Both the position numbers and the translations under genes were made by a program. The notes below the pieces were generated by a model. It saw only the letters and a list, made by a program, of their open reading frames with translations, had not been told where the DNA came from and did not search any database. Shown piece after piece: positions 33,878 through 44,484 of a stretch of DNA of 64,000 bases. The DNA is from a virus. The stretch spans positions 62,001 to 126,000 of IMG/VR virus record IMGVR_UViG_3300021364_003460; one strand, 5' to 3'. The first letter of the stretch is position 1, and the number at the start of each line of letters is the position of its first letter.

Positions 33878-34918
33878 ATGACAACAGAAAGCTTAAACTT
33901 AGCAACTATTGAGGTTATTGAAGATATCTTTCCTCACCCTGACCCTGAAGTAGAAAGATTAGAGATTGCTAAAGTTCTCAATTTTACTTGTGTAGTAAGT
34001 AAAGGTAGTTTTAAGAAAGGAGACTTATGTATTCTTATTCAACCTGATAGTGTGCTGCCTGATGCTGAGTGGACTGAACCTTACAAGAAGTTTTGTAAGA
34101 CAAGAATTAGAGCTACTAAAATCAGGGGGTTTGTTAGCTTTGGAGTAGTAGAAAAACTAAACTTAATAGCACCTTCCTCAGTCAAAGGATTTTGGAATGA
34201 AACAGAATGGTTAGAAAGCTGTTATAAAAATAATATAGGATTAGATGTTACTAACTTATTAGGTATTACTAAATATGAACCCCCAGCAGGTAATGAGTTA
34301 GGAGCTAAAGGAAATTTACCATTTAGTATAATTAAGAGTTCAGAAACACTATGGCAGAATGTTAGAAGCCTAGATAAGTATATTGGGCAGATTGTAGATA
34401 TTTCTCTAAAAATAGATGGTGAGGCAGCAGCCTACTTCTATAAAGATGACCAGTTTGGTGTGTTAAGTAGAGGAGTAGAATATGATCCTGAAGTAAATAA
34501 TAAATATACTTCTCACATAGGTAGATATAATTTGTACTCTAAATTAGCTTCCTACTGTGAAACTCACAAAGTTAACTTATGTTTAAGAGGAGAATCCTAT
34601 GGACAAAGTATTCAAAACAGACCACTCAATCCTCACTCTAAGCTACCCCTTAACATAGCTTTCTACTCTGTATGGCTTATTGATGAAATGAGATATGCAG
34701 GTAAAGGAGAAAAGCATTACTTTGTAGATGTCTGTAAAGAGCTGGGCTTGCCAACTGTTGATATCTTAGAAGAAGATGTTGAGTTAACTTATGATTTGAT
34801 TAAGAAGTATGATGAGCATTTAGAGAAAGTGAATGGTCAACCTTTTGAAGGTGTAGTAGTTAAGGGGGCTGACTTTAGCTTTAAGATTATTAATAAACAT
34901 TATGATAGCAAGAAGTAA
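33878..34918 (+). CDS. RNA ligase, DraRnl/DRB0094-like
   Basis: 346 residues. The N-terminal region (LATIEVIEDIFPHPDPEVERL...GDLCILIQPDSV) resembles the OB-fold front of the Deinococcus RNA ligase family, followed by the nucleotidyltransferase. The active-site lysine is K178 in SLKIDGEAA (K-x-D-G), then LCLRGESYG (motif III) and FEGVVVKG (motif IV/V). It would seal RNA nicks with ATP, probably as repair of host or phage tRNA/mRNA damage. Its gene lies 370 bases before the tRNA-like element at 35290. Confidence 0.85.
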   Translation: MTTESLNLATIEVIEDIFPHPDPEVERLEIAKVLNFTCVVSKGSFKKGDLCILIQPDSVLPDAEWTEPYKKFCKTRIRATKIRGFVSFGVVEKLNLIAPSSVKGFWNETEWLESCYKNNIGLDVTNLLGITKYEPPAGNELGAKGNLPFSIIKSSETLWQNVRSLDKYIGQIVDISLKIDGEAAAYFYKDDQFGVLSRGVEYDPEVNNKYTSHIGRYNLYSKLASYCETHKVNLCLRGESYGQSIQNRPLNPHSKLPLNIAFYSVWLIDEMRYAGKGEKHYFVDVCKELGLPTVDILEEDVELTYDLIKKYDEHLEKVNGQPFEGVVVKGADFSFKIINKHYDSKK

Positions 34919-34920
34919 AT

Positions 34921-35286
34921 ATGTTTAAGCTATATACGCCAACAAGTAAAATCATAGCAGAATTATATGATTTTACTATAGAAGCTAAACCTACTACTAG
35001 TAACTTTAAGTACCTACCGTTTGCTTTAGTTTCAGAAAACTTACATTCTGAGTTAACTGAAGATATTAATATTAATAATTGCACTTTAGAACTTCCTTAT
35101 ACCGTAGATATCTTTAATAAATATTTTAGTAAACGCTGGAATAACTTTGAGGATAGAAATGACTTTAATACAATGGTTTTAAACCTAAGTATTAAGTTAC
35201 TTGTTTTTACAAAGTTATTTCCTGGTAGAAAAGTTAAATATCAATATAGACTAGAAGGTATAGTTTATTCAATAAGTTTAAAATAA
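34921..35286 (+). CDS. Hypothetical protein, 121 aa
   Basis: Follows RNA ligase by two bases. Beta-rich with Lys/Tyr (KYLPFALVSENLH, RKVKYQYRLEGIVYSIS). No family recognised. Confidence 0.65.
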   Translation: MFKLYTPTSKIIAELYDFTIEAKPTTSNFKYLPFALVSENLHSELTEDININNCTLELPYTVDIFNKYFSKRWNNFEDRNDFNTMVLNLSIKLLVFTKLFPGRKVKYQYRLEGIVYSISLK

Positions 35287-35289
35287 TTA

Positions 35290-35345
35290 AGAAAGCTGGC
35301 TAATTGGTAGCCTAATCTATCTGAGTTCAACTCTCAGGCTTTCTA
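35290..35345 (+). ncRNA. tRNA-like element lacking the anticodon arm
   Basis: Acceptor AGAAAGC (35290-35296) pairs perfectly with GCTTTCT (35338-35344), with base A next as discriminator. T97 sits at the U8 place. The D arm is GGCT-AATTGGT-AGCC (35298-35312) with the typical GG in the loop. The T arm is CTGAG-TTCAACT-CTCAG (35321-35337), five perfect pairs around a consensus 7-base T loop (TTCRANY). Between D and T arms only TAATCTAT remains, so there is no anticodon arm and no CCA. It cannot decode a codon. The next bases are the recurrent TATTTTAATG. A 3'-processing or ribosome/RNase P decoy role is possible. Confidence 0.6.
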
Positions 35346-35353
35346 TTTTAATG

Positions 35354-35388
35354 ATATAATATAAGTTATTTTAAAGTTTATATTATAT
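35354..35388 (+). promoter_or_regulatory. AT-rich leader hairpin with shared 20-mer and TATAAT
   Basis: ATATAATATAA (35354-35364) and TTATATTATAT (35378-35388) are exact reverse complements. The first arm holds TATAAT (35355-35360). The 20-mer of 33382 recurs at 35366-35385. The start codon at 35393 follows by four bases. Confidence 0.5.
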
Positions 35389-35392
35389 TTAC

Positions 35393-36097
35393 ATGACAAC
35401 TGAATACACTAATATAGTTCAGCTAGGTAACAGACTAGTTAATGAACTTAAGTTTTTTTTTGAAAATAAGAATCTAGTTGGCACTAAAGAAGCAAATTAC
35501 ATTATTGAATCTTTTGAAGAGTTTATTGAACAGCTATCTAATCCTATAGTTAGTCAGGAGTTAGATAATTATAAACTCTCTATTCAGAATCCTATTGAGA
35601 AGTTTGGTTTAGTAGAGGAAGTAGTTAAGTGCATTGAAGAAGGTAAAGACAATAAAGAGATAGCTGAAGGGTTAGCTCTTAGAGGACTACCTATTGAGTC
35701 TAAACATATATCTTCCTTTAAGAAAGAATATGAAAAAGCTGATATATTAGCTAAAATAGATAAATCTAACTCTAGTATCTTTGATACTGAAGTTCAATTA
35801 CAAATGATATTTGATACTCTACAAAATCAATTACAAGAGTTGGAGTATGCTGATGAAGAAATGTTACTTAGAGCTAGAACTACTAAGTATTCTTTAAAAA
35901 CAGAAACCTTAAGAGAGATTAGAATGGCAGCCAAAGATGCTAAAGAGTTAGCTGAAGCTGTGCTTAATCTACAGAATACTAAGAAGTTCAATCAAATAGT
36001 ATTAGAAACAGTTAATAAAGAATGTGGTCCAGTTGTCTTTAATAAAGTAGTAACTGAACTTAGGAAGCAGAAACTAATGTTTAACTTTACTCTTTAA
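35393..36097 (+). CDS. Hypothetical DNA-binding-like protein, possible small terminase
   Basis: 234 residues, helical. Residues about 79-115 (EEGKDNKEIAEGLALRGLPI) look like an HTH as in small terminase subunits, followed by long helices (about 125-200). It lies beside the structural region but converges with it (4-base overlap with the giant gene), and TerL is 11 kb away on the other strand, so the call is weak. It has a nine-T run in frame near its start (35453-35461). Confidence 0.45.
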   Translation: MTTEYTNIVQLGNRLVNELKFFFENKNLVGTKEANYIIESFEEFIEQLSNPIVSQELDNYKLSIQNPIEKFGLVEEVVKCIEEGKDNKEIAEGLALRGLPIESKHISSFKKEYEKADILAKIDKSNSSIFDTEVQLQMIFDTLQNQLQELEYADEEMLLRARTTKYSLKTETLREIRMAAKDAKELAEAVLNLQNTKKFNQIVLETVNKECGPVVFNKVVTELRKQKLMFNFTL

Positions 36098-39000
36098 CTA
36101 TAACCAGGTTTAGAATTATAACTATTAATCATACCTCTAGTTACAGCTAACTGGAGGTTATTGTTTTCAGCTACCTTATTAGTAATAACTACTTTGTTAC
36201 CTACCTGTTCTCCTTTAACAGATTTAACTAATACAGGTTGAGTGTTATGCTGTAGAGCTACTTGATTAACTTGAGCATCTATAAAAGTATTTTTAACTTC
36301 ACTAGCATCAACTTGTACTTTAGTTTTGAGGTTAGCAGATGACTTGACTACAGTATTGTTAGATTGTTTAGCCAATGCTACTAAGTTAGCTTTTAGTTGA
36401 GTATTAGATTGCTTGTTACTTAGTCTATCTTTAGTATTCTTTTGTAAAGCTTGTAACTCAGACTGTCTACTAGCATCTGCACTACTTAGCTTTTGCTGGA
36501 TAGCGGGATCCCCCATTCTGAGTTGTACAGTAAGTGCTTTTAACTCTTTATAGTTTTCAGCAGACTGTATTACCTTATCCCAAGAGGCTGCACCTACAAC
36601 TACTTGATTGTAGTATTGAGACCTAATAGTAGCTTCTCTATCTATCAGTGAGTTAACTAAACTAAAGGTAGGTTTATTAAACATTCTAGCTTTAGGTTCT
36701 AACTCACCATAAGAGTTACCATAGAAAGTAGGATTAGCAAACAAACCTTTAGTTCTGTTACCTGTCCAGTCACCTGAAGCTTCTAGATACTTAGAGGAGT
36801 CATAGGCGATCGCCATCTGAGCAGTAGCCACATAGATAGGAGCTTTATCATCATAAAACTTGGTGAAGGCTAATGGCTGTTGTGAGTTAGTAGCAAAGAA
36901 GCCTCCTATATGTGGAATGTTAGATACCCAATCCATAAAGGGAGTTAGCAAGCCATTAGTCCATCTAGATATACCAGGAAAGATACTATGAACTAAAGCT
37001 GCTGTACTACCTGCTGCTAAACCTAATAAAGCTGCTGGAGCTAAAGCCATACCTGCCACACTAGCTAACAATAATACACCTAATCCTACACCTGCAAAAG
37101 TTATTATACTACCAGGAGAAGTAAGCTCTTTTAGTACAGGTACGCTGTTAACAAATCTATCAAAAGAAAGTAATGTTTGCCCAAAGAAGTTAGTAGTACC
37201 TTCATAAACTCTACCTACACCTCCAGTAATACTTCTCACTACATTAGTATTCCTAACATCATTCCAAGCTTCTCCTATAGCTTTACCTCCTGCAATTAAT
37301 CCTGCTATTGTAGTTAAAGTAACAGCAGCAAAAAAACCAGCTTTGCCAGGTTTTCTAGCAGCAGACTGTAATGCTGACTTACCTAAAGAGGGTAAAGTTT
37401 TCATAAATAACTTAGGTAGTCTGTTTAGTATTGTAATGTTTACAGCAGTACCAAACAAAGAACCAAAGACTACTTGACCAGTAGATTCAGCAGCAAAATT
37501 AATTTCACCTTCAGTAGCATAAGGGTCTGACTCTAAAGCAGCTAGTCTATTAAAAGAAGTAAAGATATCTAAGGACTCCATACCACTAGAGAATATTGCT
37601 ACTCCTTTTAAAGTATTCTCAAACCCACCAGCTAACATTGCAGTTCTTCTAACTTTAGGAATCTGCATTCTTTCTAAAGTATCTACTAAGGTAGCAGAAG
37701 GTTTACTAATTCCATCAGGTAAGTTTACTGTAGCTGCTCTAGGAGTTGATAACTGATTATGTCTACTAAAGAAGTTTCTGTGTCCTTGTACAAACTTAAA
37801 AGGTTTAACCATTTCTAAGATTGCATTTTTAACTCTAGCTCCATAACCTAAAGCATCTTCAGATTCTAAGTAAAGTAAGTTATTATCAAGTCTACTAGCA
37901 AAGGTATCTACAACTGATCTTATCTTGTGAGCTAGTAATTTAGATAGCTGCTCTCCTCTAGCTCCTTGTACTTTAGCCAATATATCTTCACCTAACTCTT
38001 TTGATTTGTGAATCTCTTCAGCTAAGAATTGGTCAACTGCTTGGTAAATTTCCTGTTTAAGTTTCCCTTTAACAGTCTCATCTATAGGTCTCATTATTGT
38101 CATATCTTCTAATAACTTAGTATCAGTTAGTAAATCTCCAAAAGATAAATTAGAACCAGGTTGCTGTGATGTAAAAGCTTCAAAGACACTATCAATATAG
38201 TCATCTACCATATTAGTAATTTGAGGTCTTAAAGTTTCAGTAACATACTTAAACCTGTCTGAGCCTATCCATTTAGGTTGATTTGGATTAGGACTGTTAA
38301 CATCATAGAACATATCTCCTGATATTCTAAATACCCTATTAACTACTTCTTCATGAGCTTTACCTATGCTAATCTGAACGTGCTGTAAGATTTCATTAAC
38401 TGCTTGTACTTCACTTTTGCCAGTTAAGTCAAATCCTTCAGGTAAGATAACTGCAAACTGTCTACCTCCTTTACCTTTAATTTGTACTCCCATTCTGTTA
38501 CCATCAACAGTTATCCTTTTATGGGCATGGAAGTTATAAACTTTAGCTGCACCTTCCTCACCTACAGTGGCAAACATATTTCTAAATCTATAAGTAGCCT
38601 CTTCAAATCTAGTTTCCATAGGTGAGAAAGCTAATGCTCCTAAGAAACCAGCACCCATTACTACTCCAGTAAGTGCTACTGCTCCTATAGCTCCAAACCT
38701 AATCATAGTAGGGAATGCTTCAGTCATTTTCCAAGCAGACTCAGCACCTTTCCATAAGATACCCCACCAAGGTTCAGATTTCATATTAGAAGTATCTAAC
38801 TGTAAGCTGCCTCCATAAGCTAACATCTCCCCAGGGTTATCCATTACACTAGGAGATATCTCTAAAGCTTTATCTTCAGTTTTAGTAACTTTTAAATCCG
38901 TTACATGTAATCTATTATTAGTAGCAAATATAGCCCTTAGTAATTTAGCTACTTGCTTAGTATCCATAGCTTCTAAAGCTGCTTTTTGGTGAGGATTTCT

Positions 39001-42000
39001 AGGGTCATGTGGAAATGCAGCTAATGGATTTCTAATGTCTACTACATTACTTAACTCTGTTAAACTATTGATGTCAAAAGGATCTGTACTTCTACTAAGT
39101 ATGTTTTCAGGGCGTTGATAAGCTAACTCATTAGACCTTCTTATTCTTAGCTGTAAAACATGACTTAGTATACTGTCTCCACTTACTAACTCTAATGTAG
39201 GGTCATTATAAGGAGTTGAATACTTTCTAGGTTTAGCTAGTGGAGATAACTGTGCTGTGGCTGATATAACAGCTAAACTACTTGCCATTAACTTAGTTTT
39301 ATTATCTGACTTCCTAGTATCTCTAATAGCTTTCTTCATGCCTTCTAAAACTAAAAAGTTATATTGAGAGTTAGGTGTCATTCCTAATTTAAAGAAGTAT
39401 TTAGGTAGCATTGAGTAGATAGCAAAAGAGGTATCTTGTAAAGCAGACTGAGTTTGAGCATATATTCTATACCTAATACCTTTGTCTCCTGAAGATAAGG
39501 TGATGCCAACACCAGGTAAAATAGACTGGAAAGGATTCTGTGGGCTTACTACAAAAGGAGCCATTATATCTTGTAGTGCTTTAGTAACCTTTTGCTGTTG
39601 AGGGTCATTAGGATTAAGTAATCTAAACCCCTTCTGACTAATCTGCATTCCCTTGTCATCTACAAAAATAGTTGTATCTATAGGTGAACCATTGTTTCTT
39701 TTATCTTGTCTAGTTACTAACCTAAAGATATTAGCTAAACCTTCCCCAAAAGTATTACCATCTAAAGAGTTGTAAAAAGCATCAGTAGCCTTCTGACCTG
39801 TACCACCTTCTGAAGCTACATAACCCCAACCTTGCATTAGATAACTAGCAGCTTTAGGTATTAAACCTAATCCTATTATAGATAGAGTAAAAAATCTCTT
39901 AGTTCTAGCTGCTGCAACTGACTTACCACCCTTCATGTTAATAAAGTCGGCTCTACTCCATAATGCTTGTAACCCTTTGTTTAGATTAGTATCAGAAACT
40001 ATAGTATCAATAGCATTAAGTTTAATACTGTTGATTTTGTTGACTGCATCATTCAGAACTACTTCTTCTTTTATAGAATCAGACAATTGAGCAGCAGTAA
40101 TACTACCTTTGTGCACATTACCTATATAACCTAATGTCTTTTCTAAATACTTATTAACATAGTCTCTTTGTAACCAGTTTTTGTAAGTGACATAAGAAGA
40201 CCTCAAATAATCTAAAGGGTTAAGATAGTTCTTAGCTCTGACCTTATTAATATAATTAGTTCCAGCAGTATACTCTTTTAGTATCTGTGCTGGAGACTTA
40301 CCAATGTCAGCTATTTCTAAAGCAGGTATACTTAGTGCAGCAAACCCTACCATAGTTATACTTTTCTTCAGCCAGTTACTCCTTTCATCTTCTAAAGGTC
40401 TGCCATCAGCACCTGTAGTAAGATAAGTGTCTTTATCCATGTTGATAGAAACACCAAAGGTAGAATCTGTAAGTAGCCATCCATAGGCAAAGGTAGCACC
40501 TACAGTAAGTATGTAGCCTAAATTCATCTTAGGTTTAATAGTTATGTTTTCTACAACTGAGGCTAACTTAGTTTTAATAGGGTTTAACTTACCAGGAATA
40601 TCTAATCCATCTAACCTATTAGAATACATACCAAAAGCTGCTGTACCCAGTAAAGTAGTACCTGCATAAACCTTTGTTTGAGTTTCATCATCTGCACCTA
40701 GAAACTTAGCACCTGTAGTAGCTAAAGGAGCAAATAGTAAAGCAGATACACCAAAAGACCTACCTATTTTACCTAGTGTAGTAGTTCCCTCTTTAAGAAT
40801 GTTTGCACTATTTTTTACTGTTAAACCTAACTCTTGTATTACTTTAGTTTGAAAGTTGAAGTGAGAAACAGCTAAATTAGCAGAGTAAACTGGAAATGAT
40901 ACTAAATCTTCAAACAATCCATAAGAAGTTTTAAATACAGATTTAACTATGTTAGAGGTGGCTTTTAGTTCACTTGTAAGAATACCATCTTTGTTAAGTA
41001 AGTTTATAAAAGGTAGCTTTAAGAAACCTTCCATGAGGCTAATAGTAGTGAGCATACTAGCAGTTAGCACCATTAAACTGCTGCCCATGTTACCAATAGC
41101 TCCAAGGAAACTTAGTATGTTGTCTTTACCATTGTTGTGAACTAATGCTCCTTTACCTCCTAAATGATTAGGTTTATCCCAATCAATCATTATAGGAAAT
41201 AGAAAACTAATGTTAGTACCTAGAATAGGTGCTGTTTGCTGACCAGCTTTAAACTCTAATGTACCTCCTCTTACTAAGTTACCCATTTCATCATACTGTC
41301 TACCTTTAGTAACCTCAGTTGCAAAGAACTGAAAGTAAGGAGTAGGTGACTGGTGAGCTATAACTCTAGTAACTTTATCCTTAATCTTAGGATCTACTAT
41401 AGGCATTGAAGATGTAATGAAACCTAATTGATAAAGTCCTGCTGCTTCTAATGGAGTGATGTTACCTGAGTTTAATCTATCTATAAGTTGTTTCTTTAGA
41501 GAAGTTAATTCTCCCATCACTCCTATATTCTCATTAAGGAGAGCATTACCTTTCTTACCTAATACAGCTTCACCTAACCAGGGTATAGATTGAAATACTT
41601 TCATAGCATTACTTACTACCCAAGGCGCAGCAGTCCTAGCAGCTAACATTGCTGTAGAAGTCCAGACCATCATAGGTAAGAAATTACCTTTAGGTCTGGC
41701 TGATAATAGTTTGTTTCCTTTAATGATTTTAGTAAGTATAGTTTTCTTTAATTGAGATACATTAGGATCAGCTTTAATCCTTTCCAAAGCTTCTGGCGCA
41801 TTAGTTCCTAATATATATCTATCTAAATTGGGAGACCTTAATGTTGCTATACTACCTACACCTGCTCCTACTGCTAATGAGAATGCAGAGTATCCTAAAG
41901 ATGCAGCTATTGAAGTGTAACCTCCTCCCCAACCAAATACTCTAGTAGGCTCAAAATCAGGAGTAAAATTATCATTTCTATGAGTTACTGCTACTATCAA

Positions 42001-44484
42001 TTGACTTACTAAAGATGCTCCTGTGGTAGCTTTCATAACATCCTCTAGTATCATAGATGCTCCTAGAATTCCAATAGCATAAACTCCCAGATTGCTTCTA
42101 TTGTTAAGGAATCTATTACTAGTAATAAGTCTATTAGAATTCCTTAAGTGAGCTTGAGGTAAGTTCTGTTGGTCATAAAACCTAGCAGCATCTTCAATCA
42201 TTGCATCTCTAGTAACACCTAGCTTGTTATTACTTTCTAAAGTGACTTCATAATCAAGCAGACCTCTAATAAATTTCTCTACATCTTCTACATTCTCACT
42301 AGCTAACAATCTATTTTGATTCTTACTATCCCAGTGAAGTGATTTGTTTAGTAATTGTTCTTCTAGTAATAACAGCTTCTTGTGTTCTTTAAGAATACCT
42401 CCTACTCCATCTAGATTAAGTATTCTTTGTATACCTGCACCTACTATATTGACTGCTTTACCTAACAAAGTCTTAGGTACTGCAAAACTAGATAACCCTT
42501 TAGCTTTGATTCTACCTAATGCAGAAGTTTCATCAATATAAGTACCCTTGTTAACTATAGTTAAGAATTCACCACCGTAATAAAGTCTTTCTAGAGTATG
42601 AAATAACCCAGTAAAGTTAAAGACTTCAGCAGCAGATAAGAAATCTTTAGCTATTATCTTTCCTCCTGGATCTAGAGTTAGAGTTACACTATCATAGTTT
42701 TTACCCATTCTTCCCCATTTTAAAGGATTGACAGGAAGATAACTACCTAGTTCCTCTAAAGCTTCAGCTACTTTCTTAGCTTTCTCAAAACCATCATTTT
42801 GTAATATAAACTTAGCTGTATTTGGGTCTTTACTGTCAAACTCCCCAAAGATATTAGCAGTAGTAGTATTTCTGTAATTAGTTAAAGCATTTTGGAGAAA
42901 CCTATATTGACTGCTATCTGGTTTATAAGGATTAATTACATCTTCTATAAAAGGTCTGATAGTGTAGTCAAAGTTAATAGCAGCTTTAGTATTCTGTAAT
43001 AAGTTAACTCCACTAATAAAAGAGTTAAATCCTGGTCTGAAAACTTTTTCTTTTAAATTATCTTGTTCAGCCCATAAGAAGTTTCTTAGCTGAGTTGGAT
43101 CTTTTGAAGCGTGTTCCCAACCTAGAGTTAACCCTGTAGCTACCATTTGTGCAGCTCTAAAACCAGCTATTTTACTCTTACCTACAGTACCTTGTTGAAG
43201 TGCTATATCTATTAAACTTTGATAGGATGTCTTAAACATCTCAGCAGTAACAATACCAAAAGGTACACCTATCAGAAAGTAACCTAAAATTGCTTGAGTA
43301 GTTTGTACAACAAAGTTAGTAGCAAAGCTAAGTGTTGATTGAAAGAAACCTTCAGGAGGCTCAACATAAGTTCCTACAGGGTCTATTTCCTGCATTCTTC
43401 TAATATAGTCAGGAAGATTACCTCCATAGTAAACTAAAGAGTTATCTAATACTTTACCTAATGCACCTGCTAATGAAGCTAGTGGTCCAACTTCTTCTTT
43501 ATATATTCTCCCCCAACCATTAGCTATAGACCATTTGTTTACATAGTAAGATAATCCTGATGTAGCCATCTCTCTATCATAATTAGCTATGTACCAGGGA
43601 ACTGTATCTGTAGTATTACCAGCATTCTGAGCCATGTAAGTTAACTTGTAAGCTGCTGTAGCTGGACCTTCAGTGTCAGTAATATCAAAAGTAAACAGAC
43701 CTGCATTATCCCTTTGTGCAGCATATATAGCTCTCCTAAAGAAGTAAGCAGAACCATATTGAGAAGGTAGAGTGTAAGTTATTTCAGAGTTAGGATTAAA
43801 AAATGGAGTTAGCTGTTGGTTAGTAATACCATACTCTTTAGACATTTTTCTAAGAACTTGCCTATCTTTATACCTTGCTAGTTCAGGTCTTAGTCTATCT
43901 AAAGCTTTAGGAGGTAGAAAAGAAGACATCTTACCTCTTTCTATTAACCTAAAATCTGAAGGCATTAAAGCTTTTTTACTAAACAGACCTTCAGATTCAG
44001 GAGACTGTAATGCTCTTTCTACTCTTTGATAATACTCAGCTTCTACTTCTTCTGATATAGAACTATCTCTAAAAGAATCATATAAGTAAGCTGCACCTCT
44101 TCTGACTAACTCTTGGTTTACGCTAACTAGATTACCTTCTGAATCTTTTATAAAGACTTCTCCCATTACCCTGTCTTGAGAAACGTTTCCAGGAAGTCTA
44201 AGATAAACTTGATTGTTAGAAGGTATGATTTCTCTTAGTATTCTTTTACTTTCATCTCCATAATATTGACTTCTTTTATCAAGAGAGTGAGAAGTCTCAG
44301 GAGCATCTATACTTAGAAACCTTACTTTACTTCTACCTTGTAGAAATCTTTGATTAGTAGGAGAAACTCCAGTTATAGAAAAAGTATCTGCATCATAATC
44401 TCTACTAAAGTTTACTTCAGCAGGTATTAATCTACTTTTTCTATAATTTTCAAGACTACCAAAAGTTCTGTCAGAAGAATACAT
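36094..44484 (-). CDS. 2796-residue virion-like protein with N-terminal staphylococcal nuclease domain
   Basis: Residues about 20-165 form an SNase domain: FSRDYDADTF (D33), VRFLSIDAPE (R55, D60, E63) and SQDRVMGEVF (R105), the staphylococcal nuclease active site. The rest holds many hydrophobic segments of 18-40 residues (for example LGYFLIGVPFGIVTAEM, GVVMGAGFLGALAF, LGVLLLASVAGMALAPAAL) and long helical stretches (about 2610-2730). Size and hydrophobic repeats fit a tape measure or an ejected inner-virion protein. It is the last gene of the structural operon, two bases after the gene at 44486. Tape measure function is inferred; SNase is seen. It may cut host DNA on entry. Confidence 0.8.
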   Translation of the reverse strand: MYSSDRTFGSLENYRKSRLIPAEVNFSRDYDADTFSITGVSPTNQRFLQGRSKVRFLSIDAPETSHSLDKRSQYYGDESKRILREIIPSNNQVYLRLPGNVSQDRVMGEVFIKDSEGNLVSVNQELVRRGAAYLYDSFRDSSISEEVEAEYYQRVERALQSPESEGLFSKKALMPSDFRLIERGKMSSFLPPKALDRLRPELARYKDRQVLRKMSKEYGITNQQLTPFFNPNSEITYTLPSQYGSAYFFRRAIYAAQRDNAGLFTFDITDTEGPATAAYKLTYMAQNAGNTTDTVPWYIANYDREMATSGLSYYVNKWSIANGWGRIYKEEVGPLASLAGALGKVLDNSLVYYGGNLPDYIRRMQEIDPVGTYVEPPEGFFQSTLSFATNFVVQTTQAILGYFLIGVPFGIVTAEMFKTSYQSLIDIALQQGTVGKSKIAGFRAAQMVATGLTLGWEHASKDPTQLRNFLWAEQDNLKEKVFRPGFNSFISGVNLLQNTKAAINFDYTIRPFIEDVINPYKPDSSQYRFLQNALTNYRNTTTANIFGEFDSKDPNTAKFILQNDGFEKAKKVAEALEELGSYLPVNPLKWGRMGKNYDSVTLTLDPGGKIIAKDFLSAAEVFNFTGLFHTLERLYYGGEFLTIVNKGTYIDETSALGRIKAKGLSSFAVPKTLLGKAVNIVGAGIQRILNLDGVGGILKEHKKLLLLEEQLLNKSLHWDSKNQNRLLASENVEDVEKFIRGLLDYEVTLESNNKLGVTRDAMIEDAARFYDQQNLPQAHLRNSNRLITSNRFLNNRSNLGVYAIGILGASMILEDVMKATTGASLVSQLIVAVTHRNDNFTPDFEPTRVFGWGGGYTSIAASLGYSAFSLAVGAGVGSIATLRSPNLDRYILGTNAPEALERIKADPNVSQLKKTILTKIIKGNKLLSARPKGNFLPMMVWTSTAMLAARTAAPWVVSNAMKVFQSIPWLGEAVLGKKGNALLNENIGVMGELTSLKKQLIDRLNSGNITPLEAAGLYQLGFITSSMPIVDPKIKDKVTRVIAHQSPTPYFQFFATEVTKGRQYDEMGNLVRGGTLEFKAGQQTAPILGTNISFLFPIMIDWDKPNHLGGKGALVHNNGKDNILSFLGAIGNMGSSLMVLTASMLTTISLMEGFLKLPFINLLNKDGILTSELKATSNIVKSVFKTSYGLFEDLVSFPVYSANLAVSHFNFQTKVIQELGLTVKNSANILKEGTTTLGKIGRSFGVSALLFAPLATTGAKFLGADDETQTKVYAGTTLLGTAAFGMYSNRLDGLDIPGKLNPIKTKLASVVENITIKPKMNLGYILTVGATFAYGWLLTDSTFGVSINMDKDTYLTTGADGRPLEDERSNWLKKSITMVGFAALSIPALEIADIGKSPAQILKEYTAGTNYINKVRAKNYLNPLDYLRSSYVTYKNWLQRDYVNKYLEKTLGYIGNVHKGSITAAQLSDSIKEEVVLNDAVNKINSIKLNAIDTIVSDTNLNKGLQALWSRADFINMKGGKSVAAARTKRFFTLSIIGLGLIPKAASYLMQGWGYVASEGGTGQKATDAFYNSLDGNTFGEGLANIFRLVTRQDKRNNGSPIDTTIFVDDKGMQISQKGFRLLNPNDPQQQKVTKALQDIMAPFVVSPQNPFQSILPGVGITLSSGDKGIRYRIYAQTQSALQDTSFAIYSMLPKYFFKLGMTPNSQYNFLVLEGMKKAIRDTRKSDNKTKLMASSLAVISATAQLSPLAKPRKYSTPYNDPTLELVSGDSILSHVLQLRIRRSNELAYQRPENILSRSTDPFDINSLTELSNVVDIRNPLAAFPHDPRNPHQKAALEAMDTKQVAKLLRAIFATNNRLHVTDLKVTKTEDKALEISPSVMDNPGEMLAYGGSLQLDTSNMKSEPWWGILWKGAESAWKMTEAFPTMIRFGAIGAVALTGVVMGAGFLGALAFSPMETRFEEATYRFRNMFATVGEEGAAKVYNFHAHKRITVDGNRMGVQIKGKGGRQFAVILPEGFDLTGKSEVQAVNEILQHVQISIGKAHEEVVNRVFRISGDMFYDVNSPNPNQPKWIGSDRFKYVTETLRPQITNMVDDYIDSVFEAFTSQQPGSNLSFGDLLTDTKLLEDMTIMRPIDETVKGKLKQEIYQAVDQFLAEEIHKSKELGEDILAKVQGARGEQLSKLLAHKIRSVVDTFASRLDNNLLYLESEDALGYGARVKNAILEMVKPFKFVQGHRNFFSRHNQLSTPRAATVNLPDGISKPSATLVDTLERMQIPKVRRTAMLAGGFENTLKGVAIFSSGMESLDIFTSFNRLAALESDPYATEGEINFAAESTGQVVFGSLFGTAVNITILNRLPKLFMKTLPSLGKSALQSAARKPGKAGFFAAVTLTTIAGLIAGGKAIGEAWNDVRNTNVVRSITGGVGRVYEGTTNFFGQTLLSFDRFVNSVPVLKELTSPGSIITFAGVGLGVLLLASVAGMALAPAALLGLAAGSTAALVHSIFPGISRWTNGLLTPFMDWVSNIPHIGGFFATNSQQPLAFTKFYDDKAPIYVATAQMAIAYDSSKYLEASGDWTGNRTKGLFANPTFYGNSYGELEPKARMFNKPTFSLVNSLIDREATIRSQYYNQVVVGAASWDKVIQSAENYKELKALTVQLRMGDPAIQQKLSSADASRQSELQALQKNTKDRLSNKQSNTQLKANLVALAKQSNNTVVKSSANLKTKVQVDASEVKNTFIDAQVNQVALQHNTQPVLVKSVKGEQVGNKVVITNKVAENNNLQLAVTRGMINSYNSKPGYS
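36806..36813. other. HIP1 octamer GCGATCGC
   Basis: The palindrome GCGATCGC, within GGCGATCGCC, is the highly iterated palindrome of many cyanobacterial genomes. It is a rare GC-rich word in this AT-rich sequence, and supports but does not prove a cyanobacterial host. Confidence 0.5.

Follow-up and report, generated by a model that had tools for sequence, protein, structure and literature searches.

An anticodon-arm-less tRNA-like element in a cyanophage-type virus and a widespread set of similar elements in phage genomes

Results

The window analysed here is a stretch of 64,000 nucleotides, bases 62001–126000 of a 190,865-base virus record. The virus is of the cyanophage type and distantly related to Microcystis phage Ma-LMM01, with a TerL 51%, the 234-aa protein introduced below 32% and a PD-(D/E)XK nuclease about 36% identical. 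On the + strand, a run of replication/repair-type genes, from a primase to an RNA ligase of the PHA02142 type (33878–34918; PF09414, PF21189) and a called ORF of 121 aa that matched no family (34921–35286), is closed by a 56-base tRNA-like element that has no anticodon arm (35290–35345). The stop codon of the 121-aa ORF lies 4 nt before the element, and a gene of 234 aa (35393–36097; phrog_32230), conserved in Ma-LMM01-like phages, starts 48 nt after it, all on the + strand. The gap that follows the element, up to the start codon at 35393, is filled by an AT-rich 15-bp hairpin (35353–35389, +), as folding of 35346–35392 shows. The initial annotation placed the element after the RNA ligase gene; the ligase is indeed upstream, but the 121-aa ORF intervenes. 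No gene begins at the ATG in TATTTTAATG, which reads ATG ATA TAA; the start of the next gene is at 35393.

The element has the sequence AGAAAGC U GGCUAAUUGGUAGCC UAAUCUAU CUGAG UUCAACU CUCAG GCUUUCU A, all parts being on the + strand. The acceptor stem is formed by AGAAAGC (35290–35296) and its complement GCUUUCU (35338–35344) through seven Watson–Crick pairs. U8 (35297) is followed by the D arm, GGCUAAUUGGUAGCC (35298–35312), in which the folds show G18G19 and a D loop, AAUUGGU(A), like that of the class described below. The T arm, CUGAG UUCAACU CUCAG (35321–35337), has five Watson–Crick pairs and the consensus UUCRANY loop, and the last base is a discriminator A (35345), without an encoded CCA. 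Between the D and T arms, an 8-nt linker, UAAUCUAU (35313–35320), replaces the anticodon arm and variable loop; its last base is U48, opposite A15. Sequence and fold thus confirm, with zero mismatches, the 7-bp acceptor, U8, D arm with GG and consensus T arm recognised originally, and direct reading confirms that only eight bases stand in place of the anticodon arm. The D arm had been called perfect. Its stem is mismatch-free and the GG is present, but it is slightly unusual in that either position 9 is absent or the D stem is of 3 bp.

Folded alone, the element adopts the tRNA-like fold at its free-energy minimum (−18.1 kcal/mol, z = −3.2). In a 250-nt context the pair probabilities of the stems are at least 0.93, except for the terminal A–U at 0.66. 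In 324 Mb of simulated sequence (third-order Markov, with the composition of the genome) we found one comparable element that combined T8 and a D-loop GG with acceptor and T stems free of mismatches, which corresponds to ~6e-4 expected per 190,865 bases. The 7-bp acceptor, U8, UUCRANY T arm and D-loop GG are those of a canonical tRNA, but the anticodon stem with its 7-nt loop is missing, just 8 nt being present. ARAGORN reported no tRNA in any piece of the 190,865-base record, and the element scores under the bar of the Rfam tRNA model, RF00005.

Viral contigs were scanned with the pattern TTGGTAGAGC N6-17 GTTCRANTC, in which half of a D arm and half of a T loop are closer than any tRNA permits, while both acceptor strands and most of the T stem are left free. 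The T stem and a 7-bp acceptor were correctly placed, with at most one mismatch, in 47 of the 76 matches; the number expected, by a hand estimate from pairing odds, is far less than 1. The scans of viral contigs yielded ~40 distinct elements that lack the anticodon arm and come from unrelated phages, and searches of databases added others from phages in culture. Named phages with such elements include Polaribacter phage Danklef_1-5, in which they are annotated as tRNA-OTHER, Lactobacillus phage Lb and many Lactococcus phages of the P335 group, the P335 and Lb forms differing in the D arm or linker. The matches listed in bacterial genomes are from isolates of Corynebacterium, Streptococcus, Lacticaseibacillus, Weissella and Butyrivibrio, among others, and several of them adjoin phage genes; in the Lactobacillaceae, 2 of 301 genomes match. 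As the class was found via one D-arm spelling only, these counts do not delimit its size or taxonomic range. A pattern with a D arm like that of the window element gave no match with good stems in viral contigs. Such elements are widespread in phage genomes and have, it seems, been overlooked, being missed or filed as undetermined tRNAs because tRNA finders require an anticodon. We found no description of a class of anticodon-less phage tRNAs in the open-access literature; one may have appeared elsewhere. Assembly gaps in the tRNAs of MAGs are a trap for scans of this kind, and armless elements containing NN in MAGs (L127, L129, L147, L150, L154, L194) were dropped as gaps inside ordinary tRNAs.

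Among 42 distinct elements, two-sided compensatory changes occur in all seven acceptor pairs and in four of the five T pairs, and the covariation score is 0.82 compared with 0.16 in shuffles; this set was pre-chosen for no more than one mismatch, which inflates the percentage paired but leaves the spread of pair types unaffected. The tertiary 15–48 pair, which was outside the selection criteria, is G–C in 33 and A–U in 7 with none crossed (Fisher p 5e-8), although this correlation could be partly inherited from parent tRNAs. The A15–U48 read in the window element agrees with it. U8 is invariant (42/42), whereas the discriminator is mixed. Linkers are ~6–13 nt long with a peak at 8–9 nt and a few at 12–15, a distribution that the 8 nt of the window element fits. 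Covariation of the three stems, raised originally for related phages, is seen for the acceptor and T stems, and across unrelated phages; the GAGC strand of the D stem is fixed by the search pattern.

A covariance model, R1, was built from the 42 elements with the window left out. It scores the window element at 33.1 bits (E 3e-11), the runner-up reaching 11.1 bits; the full-sensitivity search recovered the element, which the quick first-look search had passed over. The window element lacks the 4-bp D stem GCUC/GAGC, A9 and A21 of the class, having a shorter D arm and no position 9, but the GAGC strand was imposed by the search pattern and hence does not truly define the class. Its membership of the anticodon-arm-less class of phage tRNA-like elements is strongly supported.

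At least 64 further distinct elements have linkers of 14–20 nt. An in-register mini-hairpin of 3–6 bp is present in 40 of the 64 listed, compared with 5 in shuffles. The loops are mostly not of 7 nt and include GAAA, GAGA and UUCG (L255–L371), and these elements could not decode normally either.

The elements are intergenic, and 63 of 72 flanking genes share the strand of the element (p 4e-11). The neighbours are phage genes, such as those for late activators, terminases, capsid and portal, and some class members are within tRNA arrays. In a Streptococcus porci prophage, 4 nt separate the end of GOLLD RNA from an armless element that lies just upstream of terS and may define the 3' end of GOLLD (L077:6773–7223). 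GOLLD sits near tRNA islands (PMC12286853). A T7-like cyanophage contig has an element between its scaffold and capsid genes. The same gap holds a more reduced T-arm element in the related phage Syn5 (L244, about 1786–1841) and T-arm-like sequences in S-CBP2 and P60 (further sites at L243, about 1568, and L249, about 1121–1181); in other cyanopodoviruses it holds a conserved hairpin, GGCACCTCAGAGTCGGACC. The element of the Lactococcus P335 group, GGTTCTT...AAGAACC, is unannotated and has a shortened anticodon region (L372–L380, about 1494–1554; L374: 207–267). It closes the late region, downstream of the lysin gene and near the integrase, with a TATAAT-like box upstream, and the sequences of these phages diverge immediately past it. 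A 366-kb virus contig has a clean armless element with an encoded CCA (G316; L396:1649–1707), and the closest relative of the RNA ligase in the window is encoded on it as well. Between the window element and its neighbouring RNA ligase, proximity is the only sign of a functional link that we saw.

Searches with the RNA ligase, 121-aa, 234-aa and PD-(D/E)XK nuclease proteins returned distant relatives only, none with an element at this site. In the Ma-LMM01-like relatives the corresponding genes overlap and no such element is found at that site. A Microcoleus phage and two contigs have a tRNA-Arg(CCU) gene directly 3' of the nuclease gene, that of the Microcoleus phage having a ~210-nt intron in the anticodon loop (L018:5539–5824), which is probably of group I. 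Since relatives carry tRNA-Arg(CCU) there, the interval between the nuclease and phrog_32230 genes has a history of holding tRNAs, orthology with our element being only a candidate relationship. A 50-nt R1 match in Ma-LMM01 and its kin (145025–145074) was rejected as an orthologue, as its acceptor is poorly paired and its D arm absent. The 50-nt T-arm-like sequence of Ma-LMM01-like phages (L390:1226–1275) is conserved and lies on the strand opposite a nearby tRNA-Tyr.

Discussion

RNase P and RNase Z require of a tRNA the stack of acceptor and T arm together with the elbow, and the part that is lost here serves decoding only. The best explanation of the element, and one that we rate a little better than even, is that it mimics a tRNA without decoding and is cut, as part of a polycistronic phage transcript, by the host RNase P and RNase Z. 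The element would be transcribed inside the + strand operon and fold within the mRNA, where the acceptor/T-arm stack and the D-loop/T-loop elbow would be recognised by the two enzymes without any role in decoding. Cuts by RNase P ahead of 35290 and by RNase Z behind the discriminator would yield two mRNAs with defined ends, one for the upstream genes, from primase through RNA ligase to the 121-aa gene, and the other for the 234-aa gene. Transcription, cleavage and any regulatory effect are what we infer from the structure, class membership and operon position described above.

Processing within the transcript is favoured because the parts retained suit RNase P and RNase Z, whereas those lost are needed solely for decoding. 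The initial annotation had offered a processing signal, a mimic or decoy and a relic side by side. The first fits best, since the elements are intergenic, co-oriented with their neighbours and close to GOLLD and tRNA arrays; the scaffold–capsid gap, the position upstream of terminase, the tRNA arrays and the position 4 nt after GOLLD all resemble processing sites. There is precedent for this: in bacteria, RNase P cleaves both mRNAs and RNAs of phages, plant mitochondria cut their t-elements, and the human nuclear enzyme accepts substrates that have no anticodon stem-loop (PMC4919922, PMC11143913). Against processing, we found no homologue at this locus, the D arm of the window element is atypical and the element falls short of the Rfam tRNA model, and class members in tRNA arrays or adjacent to a predicted promoter and the integrase (P335) also fit a free small RNA.

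Several known systems are comparable. Plant mitochondrial t-elements are likewise incomplete tRNA-like structures in transcripts, where cuts by RNase P (and RNase Z) make mRNA ends, and the element of the window, like them, lies between co-oriented genes, predicted here to share a transcript. They differ in being organellar single instances of other architecture, whereas the phage elements have one form common to many phages, with the anticodon arm gone and the elbow kept. The mascRNA and menRNA are also tRNA-like pieces freed from a longer RNA by RNase P and RNase Z with no role in translation, but they are human nuclear RNAs that retain an arm at the anticodon position. The tRNA-like domain of tmRNA has an acceptor and T arm without an anticodon arm and is processed by tRNA enzymes. 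Unlike the phage element, which has a D stem, tmRNA has none, and it has a long body with a reading frame and acts as an alanyl-tRNA; in the window element there is no tag reading frame and no tRNA-Ala-like G3–U70, pair 3–70 being A–U. The phi80 M3 RNA and the C4 RNA of P1/P7 are phage RNAs cut by RNase P, but descriptions of the two do not present them as armless cloverleaves. M3 carries the annotation of an oop homologue, and we rejected it as a homologue of the element, since it is an oop-like RNA on the opposite strand. The 58-nt tRNA-OTHER of Polaribacter phage Danklef_1 does belong to the class (73.9 bits, as a training member of R1). Annotators have treated such undetermined phage tRNAs as odd tRNAs, unrecognised as a class.

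That the element arose by chance is hardly credible. Many windows were inspected, but the simulation gave a single comparable element in 324 Mb, which already refutes chance at the scale of the genome, and the window element was picked by a covariance model built without it. It is also rather unlikely to be a relic, that is, a phage tRNA gene decaying after the loss of its anticodon arm. The tRNA-Arg(CCU) gene or tRNA-like sequences between the nuclease and phrog_32230 genes in members of the lineage speak for a relic, as does the fact that no close homologue displays conservation of the element. Against it, there are no mismatches across three stems, the clean excision, linker mode and 15–48 pair are common to many unrelated elements, and the second group has its in-register mini-hairpins well above shuffles. 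A simple relic is unlikely because the architecture recurs in phages that are unrelated, with compensation in the acceptor pairs and the 15–48 pair kept intact.

A possibility that we rate somewhat higher, though still doubtful, is a free, non-decoding tRNA mimic acting in trans, which would be cut out, perhaps given a CCA, and serve as a decoy or cofactor by binding proteins that recognise the elbow or the acceptor of tRNAs; its partners might be RNase P, the CCA-adding enzyme, RNase Z or a tRNA-attacking defence or toxin. The intact stems and fully retained elbow are consistent with this, as are the deletion of the decoding part or its exchange for tetraloop-type mini-hairpins, the TATAAT-like promoter upstream of the P335 members and the CCA encoded near the RNA ligase relative (G316). 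However, the majority of elements are packed tightly between co-oriented genes, and neither discriminator nor CCA is conserved. Equally tentative is the broader proposal that phages widely encode a dedicated class of small tRNA mimics unable to decode, some armless and others with a mini-arm capped by a tetraloop, which are excised as stable RNAs and act in trans on proteins of the host or of defence systems that bind tRNA. An element that guards the 3' end of the upstream mRNA or causes a pause, with no part for RNase P or RNase Z, would suit the stop codon 4 nt upstream and the position of the P335 members after the lysin gene, but it is improbable, since a plain hairpin would suffice and the conserved U8, A14, GG and UUCRA would be superfluous. 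More improbable still is an attachment site in the DNA that originated from the tRNA gene of a host. A large serine integrase is encoded by the phage (56015–57604) and the P335 elements are near the integrase, but the former enzyme's gene is 20 kb distant, and an attP copy keeps one half of a tRNA rather than both acceptor strands without the anticodon arm.

If the elements are RNase P/Z sites, phages punctuate their operons via the tRNA-processing enzymes of the host, and cleavage positions can be predicted in many phages, also beside GOLLD RNA. Should they act in trans, they represent a new kind of phage tRNA mimic.

Two other genes of the window, both on the − strand, deserve mention. The serine integrase is of phrog_95 and suggests that the phage is capable of integration. 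The gene at 36094–44484 encodes a protein of 2796 aa that has many hydrophobic stretches and, at its N terminus, a domain resembling staphylococcal nuclease (PF00565).
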